A DNA stretch of 64,000 nt from Planctomycetota bacterium (GTDB lineage Bacteria > Planctomycetota > Phycisphaerae > UBA1845): positions 64,049-128,048 of the forward strand of contig JAJRWX010000005.1 in assembly GCA_024276605.1 (NCBI GenBank). The letters are read 5' to 3'. Below are positions 30,428-43,037 of the stretch, piece after piece; the stretch's first letter is position 1, and every line of letters begins with the position of its first letter. The translations under genes were made by a program, and so were the position numbers. The notes below the pieces were generated by a model, which saw only the letters and a program-made list of their open reading frames with translations, had not been told where the DNA came from and did not search any database.

Positions 30428-31684
30428 TTGATCATTTCATCCGCACATAATCCATTTCATCACGCGCAGGCGCATGTGGACCGTGCGTGCCACGATCTTG
30501 GCATGCGCGATGAAGTCCGCGAACTATTACGTCGACCCATGCGCGAATATCATGCCCTACTTCCACTACAGATGGACAATGGAAATCGCCGGGTCTATGA
30601 AGCGTATCGCGTGCAATACAACAATGCTCGTGGCCCCACGAAGGGCGGTATTCGCTGGCATGCCAACGAAACCATTGACACCGTCCGTGCCCTAGCCTGT
30701 TGGATGACCTGGAAGACTGCCGTACTGGACCTCCCACTCGGTGGCGGCAAGGGAGGGATCACCTGCAATCCCAGAGAACTTTCGGATACGGAAAAAGAGC
30801 GTTTAGCCCGCAGCTATATGCGCGCCTTCGCTCCGGTAATGTCCGTCGATCGCGACGTACCCGCGCCGGACGTTCACACGACACCGCAAATCATGGCCTG
30901 GATGCTCGACGAATATGAAATCATCACAGGCCAACACCATCCCGGCGTGATTACCGGCAAGCCTCTACCGTTAGGTGGATCAGCCGGTCGGGCAGATGCA
31001 ACGTCGTTCGGCGGCATGATTATCATTCGAGACATCGATGAAGCCTTGGGATTGAAACTGAATAAAGCACATTACGTGATTCAGGGATTTGGCAATGTGG
31101 GCGGCGGCATCGCTAAACTACTTCACGAGCAAGGTGGGTGTGTCGTGGGTATTAGTGCGGAAGACACAGCTCTGTATAATGTGAAGGGGATAGATATTCC
31201 CAGCGCTTTGGTTCATTACCAACGCAACGGGCAACGCTTGGCCGGGTTCGATGGTGCAGATGAAATCAGTAACGATGAGTTGCTCACATTGGCATGTGAC
31301 ATTCTTGTCCCGGCTGCAATTGAACACGCCCTTACCCGAAGTAATGCCGACGCAGTATCAGCCAGGGTGATCGTTGAATTGGCCAACGGACCTATCACCC
31401 CGTCGGCGGATCACATCTTTCGTGATAAAGGTATCGTGGTCGTACCGGATATCCTGGCCAATGCCGGCGGCGTCACGGTGTCTTACCTAGAGCAAGTACA
31501 AAACGCACACAACTACTACTGGTCACTGGAACAGGTACGTCATCAGTTAGACCAACGCATGTCCGGTGCATTTCGCTCGTTATGGGAATTATCGCAAGAA
31601 AGAAGTATCAGTATGCGAGATGCAGCCTATCAGATATCCGTAGAGCGCGTAGCTAAAGCTTGCGAGGTTCGCGGTTGGGTATAG
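30428..31684 (+). CDS. gdhA: Glutamate dehydrogenase (Glu/Leu/Phe/Val family), unusual start
   Basis: About 418 residues. GPTKGGIRWH, LPLGGGKGGITCNP (with the catalytic-site Lys), PAPDVHTTPQIMAWMLDEY and the Rossmann VIQGFGNVGGGIA are all intact. It should interconvert glutamate and 2-oxoglutarate with NAD(P). The start is odd. AGGAGG ends at 30426, a TTG at 30428 is too close to it, and the next codons are ATC (30431) and ATT (30434). The ATT is well spaced and would give SSAHNPF, close to where relatives begin. No ATG or GTG lies in frame until well inside the conserved part. The coordinate given uses the TTG; the ATT at 30434 is my preferred alternative. Confidence 0.92.
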   Translation: MIISSAHNPFHHAQAHVDRACHDLGMRDEVRELLRRPMREYHALLPLQMDNGNRRVYEAYRVQYNNARGPTKGGIRWHANETIDTVRALACWMTWKTAVLDLPLGGGKGGITCNPRELSDTEKERLARSYMRAFAPVMSVDRDVPAPDVHTTPQIMAWMLDEYEIITGQHHPGVITGKPLPLGGSAGRADATSFGGMIIIRDIDEALGLKLNKAHYVIQGFGNVGGGIAKLLHEQGGCVVGISAEDTALYNVKGIDIPSALVHYQRNGQRLAGFDGADEISNDELLTLACDILVPAAIEHALTRSNADAVSARVIVELANGPITPSADHIFRDKGIVVVPDILANAGGVTVSYLEQVQNAHNYYWSLEQVRHQLDQRMSGAFRSLWELSQERSISMRDAAYQISVERVAKACEVRGWV

Positions 31685-33316: not shown

Positions 33317-35179
33317 ATGGTAGATCACAATCTGATCAACGAACTGGACACAGAAGATGGTGGATTAGGCTCGGGATTTGAATCCCTTTTCTCAGGTAGC
33401 GAAGGTGAGGCCGTTGTGGCGACCATCCTTGGTACGGAGAACAAAGAGTTTCAACCGGGGACAATTTTAACCGGTAAAATTGTTGGACTCGCTGGAGACG
33501 ACATCGTGGTCGATGTGGGACTCAAAAGCGAGGGGTTAGTGCCTTCATCGGAATGGGACGACCCTAGTTCGGTTGATATTGGCGATGAAGTCCAGGTATG
33601 GCTGGAAAACGTTGAATCAGATAGTGGGCATATCGTTTTATCCAAGCGAAAAGCTGATCGCCTGCTTAACTGGGAACGGATCATTGAATCCAAAAAAGAA
33701 GGTGACACCATCACCGGTAGCGTGATGCGCAAGATCAAAGGTGGCTTGTTGGTCGATATTGGCTACCCCGTTTTCCTTCCGGCCTCTCAGGTTGACATTC
33801 GTCGCCCCGGCGACATCGGCGAATACATCGGGAAGGACATTACCGCCAAAATCCTTAAGATCGACACAGAACGTCGCAATATCGTCATCTCGCGCCGTAA
33901 GCTCATCGACGAGGAACGCGCCGCAGCGAAAGACAAACTCATGACTGACATTGAGGTAGGTCAAACGCGCTCGGGTGTAGTGAAAAACCTGGCAGGTTTT
34001 GGTGCGTTCGTCGACCTTGGCGGCATCGATGGTTTGTTGCATATCACCGATATGAGTTGGGACCGTGTTGGTCATCCCTCTGAGATCGTAAAGATCGATC
34101 AGGATATTGAGATTAAGATCCTCAGCATTGACCGCGATAAAGAAAAAATTGCCCTTGGTCTCAAGCAACTGACCGTCAATCCTTGGGAAGAAGTCGAACA
34201 GCGCTACCCGCCGGACTCCAAACTAAGCGGGGAAGTCGTCAACATCACCAACTACGGTGCGTTCGTGAAAATCGAGAATGGCGTTGAAGGTCTGGTCCAC
34301 ATCAGCGAGATGAGCTGGACGCGCCGTATTAACCACCCATCCGAGCTTTTATCCGTAGGGGATACGGTGGATGTCATCGTTCTTGAGGTGAACAAGGACA
34401 AGCATGAGATTTCTCTCGGTCTCAAACAGACACAGCCCAATCCGTGGGAACACGTAGCCGACAAATATCCACCCAACACCCGCGTTTCCGGACGTGTTCG
34501 CAACCTGACGAATTATGGCGCTTTCGTGGAAATTGAGGAAGGCATCGACGGTTTGCTTCATGTATCGGACATGAGTTGGACCAAAAAAATCAACCACCCA
34601 TCCGAACTGATTAAAAAAGGCGACGAAATCGATTGTGTGGTCCTGAACGTGGACCAAGAAAAACATCGAATTGCGCTCGGTCTCAAGCAAATCCACGAAG
34701 ATCCATGGGAAAGGGCGGTGATCGACAATTACATTCCTGGTCAAATTGTCGAGGGTACGGTAACGAAAATTACGAATTTTGGTGTTTTCGTAGAACTTGA
34801 AGAGGACCTTGAGGGGCTACTGCACGTCAGTGAATTAGCCGATCATAAGGTTGAGGATCCGCACGCCGAGGTAAAAATCGGAGATAAGGTGCTGGTTAAA
34901 ATTCTTCGCGTTGATGCCGTCGAGCGTAAGATCGGTCTGTCGAAAAAGCGTGCAGAATGGTCCGCAGAACAGCAAGAAGCTGATACGGAAATCAAGAGCG
35001 TACCACGCAGAGGCGGCCTGGATGGACCCGGCGAACTGACGATAGACGCGCTTGATGCCACGATAGCGTCTAAAAGGCCGGAACCGGCACCTATTGCACC
35101 TGAATCGCCTGCCGGCGAAGACAAGGCCAAGGACGAAGGTGGTACTTCTGATGCATCAGCCGAGACGACGGATGGGTAG
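33317..35179 (+). CDS. rpsA: 30S ribosomal protein S1
   Basis: 620 residues with six S1 (OB-fold) domains. The domains begin near residues 45, 130, 215, 300, 385 and 475. Typical phrases are [16 protein letters not shown] in the second, [20 protein letters not shown] in the third, [20 protein letters not shown] in the fourth and [20 protein letters not shown] in the sixth. Domains 3-6 are the most alike. The C-terminal ~80 residues are acidic and low in complexity ([18 protein letters not shown]). S1 brings mRNA to the ribosome. The region is followed by the sigma factor gene on the same strand. Confidence 0.95.
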
Positions 35180-35272
35180 CTTGGCGGGCTAATGTTGACT
35201 GCCTGATTGCGAATCCTCAACGGTTCTTCACCATGCTACTATAATAATGGTAGACATGGCGAGGTTTTCTTT

Positions 35273-35290
35273 GAGGAGGTTTGAGCTATC
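35273..35290 (+). promoter_or_regulatory. Strong Shine-Dalgarno leading to an ATC codon
   Basis: GAGGAGG at 35273-35279 is followed 8 nt later by ATC at 35288-35290. Translation from ATC gives (M)AVDTGLQVYLKQINE, just where related sigma factors have ATG. TGA at 35282 closes the frame upstream, so no other start is possible in front. Confidence 0.75.
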
Positions 35291-36163
35291 GCTGTCGACA
35301 CCGGACTACAAGTTTATTTGAAGCAAATCAACGAGGCGGCACTCTTGACTCCCGAAGAGTAGAAGGAGTTCGGGGCCATTATCCGCAATGGTCAACAGGC
35401 CGCAGACGACTTTGCGAAAAAGCTCATAACACTTCACGAGCGAGAAAGAGCCGAATCCGACGCTGCCGAAGCGCGCGAAAGGATGGTCCGGTCTAATTTG
35501 CGACTGGTGGTCAACATCGCCAAAAAATACGCCAAGCGCGGCGTTCCGATTAACGACCTGATCAACGAGGGCAATCTGGGTTTAATACGCGCGGTTGAGG
35601 GATTTGACCCTGGCCAAAATACGCGTTTTAGCACCTACGCTTCGTGGTGGATCAAACAGGCCATCAAACGCAGTTTGATCAACAGTGACAAGCCCATTCA
35701 TATTCCGGCTTATATGGTGGAAATGATCTCGCGTTTTCGCCAAGCTGGAGAGCGCTTTCTCGAAACGGAAGGCCGCCCTCCCACGGTAGAAGAATTAGCT
35801 GAGAAGTTGGATATGACCGTGGCTAAGGTCAACCATATTCGCTCGGCGGTTAAGGCTGTTTCGACACCAACCCAAGACACAGACGACATCACCGGCGCAG
35901 CGTTGACTGAGGGACTGGCTGATGATCGTTCGCCGACCCCGGAAGATGCCCTGGCTTTTGAATCTGAAACAACCCAGGTGGTTGAATTGCTGGAAGAGCT
36001 GGATGAGCGCGAGTCGCGCATCCTACGCTTGCGCTATGGGTTGGACGGCGGCGAACCAATGACGCTCAAGGAGATTGGTAAGAAAATCAATCTCACCCGA
36101 GAGCGCGTCCGTCAGATCGAGGGTGAAGCGCTCAAGAAGATCAAAGAACATATCACAAGCTGA
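35288..36163 (+). CDS. RpoD-like sigma-70 factor, with ATC start and in-frame TAG
   Basis: The frame reads AVDTGLQVYLKQINEAALL, TPEE, TAG (35360-35362), KEFGAIIRNG, an extra ~25-residue helix, then ARERMVRSNLRLVVNIAKKY and on to the end. Region 1.2, region 2 (STYASWWIKQAIKRSLI), region 3 (HIPAYMVEMISRFRQAG) and region 4 (RESRILRLRYGLDGGEPMTL; LTRERVRQIEGEALKKI) are all recognisable. Downstream of the TAG the first ATG is at 35483, which would yield a 226-residue protein lacking region 1.2. The stop replaces a Glu/Lys position. So the gene is either broken at its 5' end, translated in two pieces (AAGGAG follows the TAG), recoded, or misread. It looks like a short RpoD-group factor rather than an ECF. 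Confidence 0.85.
35360..35362 (+). other. In-frame TAG inside the sigma factor gene
   Basis: TAG lies between codons for TPEE and KEFG, in phase with both the upstream region 1.2 and the downstream region 2. AGAAGGAG begins at the stop and could serve reinitiation at ATT 35378. TAG is used as a normal stop by neighbours such as rpsA, so general reassignment is unlikely. Confidence 0.9.
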
Positions 36164-42488: not shown

Positions 42489-43037
42489 ATGATCAATATA
42501 TGCATCATGTCCGGACATGAAGGGCAGTTGCGTTCGGAGAAAAAGTTCTATTTCACCCTCATGGGAGGATGCGAACTCCTCCGACCAACTATCGCCCAGA
42601 TGATCGTCGATAAGCGTGAGCGCATGCGGAACAATATTCAAGCTCCCTCACCAAAATTCTTTCTCACGCTGATGGGCGGTACGGAATTAAAATCCCCCAC
42701 GCTAACGCAGGAGTTTCTCGACCTTCGCGAGTTGATCGATAGTGGCAGTTTCTCTCTCGACGATTGGGAACAAACCATGGTCGAAGTAGCAAGCATGGAC
42801 CGATCTATCGCTTCATTTACACTGATGGGCAGTTTTGAGGAATGCAGCCTCCCTACCGACAATGACGAAGTGGACGGGCTAGCCCTACATTACCATCTTG
42901 GCAATATATCCGAACAGTCGCTCAACCTCCTCCAGGCAGGTGTTGGCCTGCGCAGTGCAGAGCGACGTACCATCATCTACCGTGCACTCCTAGCCGAGGT
43001 CGAATCTGCTGAACCGGCCTCTCGGCAAATTGCATAA
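42489..43037 (+). CDS. Protein with three FTLMGG repeats
   Basis: 182 residues from an ATG with GAGGA 6-7 nt upstream. No known family is certain. Three similar segments stand out: YFTLMGGCELLRPTIAQMIV, FFLTLMGGTELKSPTLTQEF and SFTLMGSFEECSLPTDNDEV. The spacing is about 40 to 50 residues, each with a small hydrophobic strand, GG turn and acidic residue. The phrase recalls the strand pattern of LiaF/DUF1707-linked C-terminal domains (FGGVEI), but is more repetitive. There is no signal peptide or membrane segment, so it is probably cytoplasmic. tRNA-Ser lies 200 nt downstream. Confidence 0.7.
   Translation: MINICIMSGHEGQLRSEKKFYFTLMGGCELLRPTIAQMIVDKRERMRNNIQAPSPKFFLTLMGGTELKSPTLTQEFLDLRELIDSGSFSLDDWEQTMVEVASMDRSIASFTLMGSFEECSLPTDNDEVDGLALHYHLGNISEQSLNLLQAGVGLRSAERRTIIYRALLAEVESAEPASRQIA

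Follow-up and report, generated by a model that had tools for sequence, protein, structure and literature searches.

Does a sigma factor gene that seems to open with ATC, and whose frame is cut by TAG only 24 codons later, have an unusual start, a decaying or recoded reading frame, or errors in its sequence? The gene lies in a 64,000 nt stretch of planctomycete DNA (the window), which comes from a 110-contig draft metagenome assembly that is 96% complete (G000). The initial annotation treated the ATC and the TAG as a single problem, but comparison with relatives separates them, the ATC being ancient and conserved and the TAG confined to the G000 assembly.

Layout and identity of the sigma factor gene

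The ATC at 35288-35290 follows a GAGGAGG Shine-Dalgarno (SD) sequence after a spacer of 8 nt and opens AVDTGLQVYLKQINEAALLTPEE (24 codons), after which the in-frame TAG at 35360-35362 is followed by an open frame of 266 codons that runs to TGA at 36161-36163. The arrangement first described (GAGGAGG, 8 nt, ATC, 24 codons, in-frame TAG, then regions 2 to 4) is all present in the sequence. One detail needs correction, as the AAGGAG motif said to overlap the stop directly follows it without overlap. The features of the locus are:

33317-35179, + strand: rpsA (ribosomal protein S1), directly upstream of the sigma gene, ending in TAG 108 nt before the ATC
35240-35245, + strand: TATAAT, candidate -10 element of a promoter of the sigma gene's own, also present at this site in both sister species
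35273-35279, + strand: SD sequence GAGGAGG, anti-SD duplex -13.4 kcal/mol
35288-35290, + strand: ATC start codon of the sigma factor gene, assigned from recurrence of ATC, ATT or ATA (ATH) in at least 65 genomes, SD spacing and an upstream TGA
35288-36163, + strand: RpoD/SigA-like sigma-70 gene without region 1.1, interrupted by TAG in the G000 assembly, assigned from Pfam/NCBIfam and orthologues
35360-35362, + strand: in-frame TAG, GAG (Glu) in both sister species
35363-35368, + strand: AAGGAG directly after the TAG, a sequence motif older than the TAG

The frame in G000 cannot begin earlier than the ATC, because an in-frame TGA (35282-35284) stands two codons ahead of it. The next ATG in frame is at 35483, where ORF calling restricted to ATG, GTG and TTG places the start, 65 codons late and at the cost of region 1.2 and part of region 2.

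For homology searches the query carried Glu at the stop position, and searches among relatives were rerun with X. Pfam finds regions 2, 3 and 4 in the window product after the TAG, and region 1.2 only in the uninterrupted relative G002, not in the interrupted window product; in G002 Sigma70_r1_2, r2, r3 and r4 all exceed the Pfam gathering score, which places the protein in the sigma-70 family. Like the group 1 and 2 factors (RpoD, RpoS and the SigA-like TIGR02997) it has regions 1.2 to 4, but unlike them it lacks region 1.1 and falls under every NCBIfam equivalog cut-off. It shows no Sigma70_r1_1 and reaches 242 of the 555 bits required for RpoD by NF004208, about 230-236 bits against the RpoS cut-off of 378.7 (TIGR02394) and 241 bits against 384.5 for TIGR02997. 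A complete RpoD is encoded on another contig (C108); it is intact, 576 aa long, has region 1.1, and scores 355.3 of 354 bits for RpoD_Cterm (TIGR02393) and 522.6 of 555, just under the cut-off, for NF004208. The window gene is therefore an additional RpoD/SigA-like factor, not the genome's rpoD; its initial annotation as a sigma factor was right. The second, intact rpoD that the initial annotation proposed to look for thus exists, but the decaying paralogue it was to betray does not follow, because the sigma gene is single-copy in its subfamily and present in 42/42 good-quality relatives. It is not a duplicate of the genome's RpoD.

The ATC start codon and its conservation

ATC, ATT or ATA occupies the start point in at least 65 genomes from five families and over 44 genera of one uncultured order of Phycisphaerae, and those records that carry names place these genomes in uncultured Phycisphaerae, Planctomycetota. 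When the start codons of 75 orthologues from the order were read individually, 57 were ATC, four ATT and three ATA, with one further ATT a codon earlier; the exceptions are mostly ATG (genera g4, g28 and g29), with two GTG-like starts in family f2 and one unclear case. Of 114 genomes of the order, 62, from 44 of 85 genera, match a strict DNA pattern with ATH at the start (55 ATC, 4 ATT, 3 ATA); the same pattern has no match among 299 genomes of the class outside the order. All three species of the window's genus (G000 and its sisters G001 and G002) share the ATC, while the start is ATG or GTG in f4, a distant family of that order, and ATG or an upstream GTG in the sister clades. On the tree, in which 17 outgroup rows were labelled canonical as a group and those without a near ATG had their starts checked afterwards, ATH arose once, in a clade of 74 genomes, within which it later changed once to ATT and twice to ATA and reverted to ATG a few times. 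An AUH codon is in this way kept across species at the same position, a recurrence beyond chance, and on this comparative evidence ATC is the ancient, conserved start codon of the sigma gene, not an error. AUC is not indispensable, since a few members of the order use ATG or GTG.

This recurrence bears out the original proposal that ATC starts the gene, and it divides the proposal of sequence error, which falls for the ATC and still stands for the TAG. That both are sequencing or assembly errors might be suspected of a draft metagenome assembly, but the ATC recurs in independent assemblies from many studies, which refutes the idea for the ATC and leaves error possible for the TAG alone; as an account of the two together it has practically no chance of being correct.

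As ATC, ATT and ATA are also synonymous codons for Ile, conservation of the codon alone does not prove initiation. Four independent signs indicate that ATH is the translation start. First, the best upstream anti-SD duplex has a mean energy of -10.0 kcal/mol over 64 ATH genomes; the mean is -5.5 for 39 sister genes with an ATG start and -3.6 for background (p about 1e-14 for ATH-start versus ATG-start sister orthologues), and the spacing from SD to ATH is mostly 7-8 nt among the ATH genomes, i.e. the ATH-start sigma genes have a strong SD at the proper distance. Second, in 31 of 63 genomes no ATG, GTG or TTG occurs from the upstream in-frame stop to the ATH, and across the 63 no position within codons 2-24 holds a conserved canonical start codon; the canonical alternatives are thus wholly closed upstream in 31 and conserved in none. 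Third, selection on codons 2-24 is strongly purifying, with an omega of 0.037 between G000 and G001 and values near 0.04 for many pairs. Fourth, two lineages have replaced the ATH by ATG, or put an ATG before it, at the same place. Among these signs the SD energy and spacing and the closed upstream frames carry most weight, and they do so strongly.

The rival view, that the ATC is an Ile-like codon, either internal or untranslated, and the true start lies elsewhere, at an upstream canonical codon, at a downstream ATG or TTG or across a frameshift, can draw on some in-frame canonical codon upstream of the ATH in about half of the genomes. The frame is nevertheless closed in the other half, in G000 by a stop just two codons upstream, none of the positions has a conserved canonical codon, the SD spacing is locked to the ATH and codons 2-24 are selected as protein, all of which makes a start elsewhere highly improbable. 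Sequence comparison thus establishes that the gene starts at AUC and that codons 2-24 are translated, and no reading other than translation from AUC agrees with it. The suggestion that region 1.2 has been lost in evolution is contradicted by the same selection on codons 2-24 and by the lack of any lineage acceleration.

The in-frame TAG at codon 25

Comparison of the orthologous locus, as the initial annotation had advised, proved informative on both codons, the ATC being shared by the relatives and the TAG position reading GAG in both sister species (88 and 86% identical). No relative searched has TAG at codon 25. A TAG flagged in G001 was considered as a sign of a conserved recoding site and rejected, being that gene's normal terminator. 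Neither sister species reveals acceleration of the G000 lineage in the sigma gene, and apart from the TAG no private amino-acid change was seen in codons 2-24 of G000. About 15 other orthologous genes of the syntenic region contain no broken frame, so the assembly is not generally poor. From these comparisons the TAG is private to the G000 assembly and unrelated to the ATC.

Readthrough or reinitiation at the TAG, yielding in the G000 species a functional sigma factor, full-length or N-truncated, would accord with purifying selection that has acted up to the present both before and after the TAG and, in a lineage that uses AUC and AUU starts, with the AAGGAG and the in-frame ATT ATC (35378-35383) 9 nt beyond it, the only conceivable near-by reinitiation codons. 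However, the AAGGAG belongs to old EEKE codons, read as GAG AAG GAG in G001 and G002, and both it and the ATT are older than the TAG in relatives, so that they are merely EKE and an Ile codon. TAG, moreover, is the commonest stop in the window, ending 16 of the 29 listed ORFs, rpsA included; as their usual terminator it is not recoded. The tRNA set of 46 comprises three Met-CAT genes (one with initiator features) and one Ile-GAT, and among the 46 there is neither an unusual initiator tRNA nor a CUA suppressor. With no positive support, and with the TAG absent from every other relative, readthrough or reinitiation is improbable. On the sequence comparisons, the TAG more likely stems from an error in the sequence, from a strain variant or from a nonsense mutation of very recent date.

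A very recent nonsense mutation could also mean that the gene is dying in the G000 species, the factor being dispensable given the intact RpoD on C108. The position of the TAG after codon 24 and the presence of that RpoD would suit such a loss, but there is no acceleration and no other lesion, the gene is the only copy in a subfamily retained by all 42 good-quality relatives, and RpoD already coexists with it. Loss of the gene is accordingly a possibility that we hold to be rather unlikely. We favour, with good confidence, a native AUC start kept since the common ancestor, with putatively throttled and IF3-dependent translation, and a TAG that is an unrelated private change.

Near-cognate starts, gene context and predicted function

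The gene for initiation factor IF3, infC, starts with ATC or ATT in nearly all of these genomes across the order (loci L105-L157). Its exceptions follow lineage: TTG in G005, G035 and G050, perhaps ATA in G015 or CTG in G058; G005 and G035 combine TTG in infC with ATG in the sigma gene. Tight covariation of the infC and sigma start codons was considered and found weak, as several genomes of family f1 pair an ATT infC with an ATC sigma gene. ATT stands in both genes of five f8 genomes, but as f8 is a single clade this pattern lends covariation little support.

That AUC might serve the lineage as a start codon in general was rejected for genus g5, where only the sigma gene, among 109 orthologue pairs, has a clearly non-canonical start; an early canonical start is present in 79 of the pairs, and the rest mostly have a slightly later canonical start or are spurious frames. 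Among sampled orthologues of the window's genus the only exceptions are infC, the sigma gene, a Glu/Leu-dehydrogenase-like gene (ATT) and a ThrRS-like gene (CTG). Near-cognate starts are thus uncommon in these genomes, though not limited to the sigma gene.

The Glu/Leu-dehydrogenase-like gene (30434-31684, + strand) probably starts with an ATT confined to the window's genus, in two species of which AGGAGG is followed after 7 nt by ATT TCA TCC, while in the third GGAGAA precedes the same ATT. An alternative TTG is missing in one species (TTA) and too near the SD in the others, and other genera have TTG or GTG at the ATT position. The ThrRS-like gene lies near infC and has an apparent CTG start in all three species of the genus, the infC there starting with ATC. 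Its loci are:

L313: ThrRS-like gene, G000 contig C109, about 109-111.5 kb
L321 and L323: further loci of the ThrRS-like gene

rpsA adjoins the sigma gene in 48 of 49 loci of the order against 5 of 52 sister-clade loci, a limit set by flanks of 1-3 kb, and the rpsA-sigma order (window 33317-36163) is a marker of the order that is rare in sister Phycisphaerae. Termination-reinitiation coupling between the two genes was rejected as a general cause, the gap being 16-461 nt (median 159) and mostly over 60. The TATAAT, 43 nt before the ATC and common to the three species of the genus, suggests that the sigma gene may have a promoter of its own; a generic promoter scan did not call it, found no -35 element and gave nothing above chance. 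Leader structure is weaker than that of shuffles (z +1.3), and no riboregulator was seen. Elsewhere in the window a small gene of about 185 codons (42489-43037) has a counterpart in G002 (C86, 34036-34909) whose frame of 291 codons runs on into an S1 domain resembling the rpsA end, which may reflect fusion to a duplicated piece of rpsA.

In our proposed explanation the near-cognate start, AUC and in places AUU or AUA, has persisted in the order from a common ancestor onwards, paired with an unusually strong SD at fixed distance. The ordinary initiator fMet-tRNA (CAU) would pair imperfectly with AUC, making initiation inefficient, and the strong SD would compensate only in part, so that the yield of sigma factor stays low and depends on how IF3, itself encoded by a gene with an AUC or AUU start in these genomes, discriminates between start codons. 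The gain for the sigma factor may be a low set-point, or an amount linked to the state of translation initiation. Throttling and IF3 dependence are what we infer by analogy with E. coli infC and S. aureus ccpN. More tentatively, and we think it the less probable case, there could be an order-wide circuit in which IF3 and the rpsA-adjacent sigma gene share the AUC/AUU start class, and the fidelity or abundance of initiation sets the amount of sigma factor and through it the transcription programme.

As far as is known, near-cognate AUH starts occur almost only in infC and a few other genes. What the sigma gene shares with infC is a near-cognate AUH start that is conserved and has a good SD. In E. 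coli infC starts with AUU, its expression being limited and autoregulated by IF3 (cited in PMC9845219), and in S. aureus it starts with AUA (PMC13009471). The sigma gene differs in its product, a sigma factor and not the discriminating factor, so there would be no direct feedback loop of the infC kind. In S. aureus ccpN starts with AUA and cvfC1 with AUU, with an extended SD; ccpN encodes a transcription repressor and keeps its AUA in S. aureus and B. subtilis, and such near-cognate starts give about 10% of AUG expression in a reporter, in a medium-dependent manner for ccpN (PMC13009471). The nearest precedent is this S. aureus/B. subtilis ccpN; both genes encode transcription regulators with a conserved non-canonical start. 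The present gene differs from ccpN and cvfC1 in phylum and in identity, encodes a sigma factor and not a repressor, and uses mainly AUC instead of AUA or AUU. A sigma factor is also read from an AUH start in the E. coli rpoS ATA mutant, which makes up to 5-fold less protein (PMC12864459), but that is a single laboratory mutation, unlike the order-wide start described here. The open-access literature yielded no report of an AUC-started sigma factor, and a conserved one appears to be undescribed.

Gene finders that accept only ATG, GTG and TTG truncate such genes, losing region 1.2, and others may be hidden in the same way. The keeping of AUC in a sigma factor over five families indicates that a weak start can be actively maintained in a central transcription regulator, and an AUC-started sigma factor would tie transcription to the fidelity of translation initiation.
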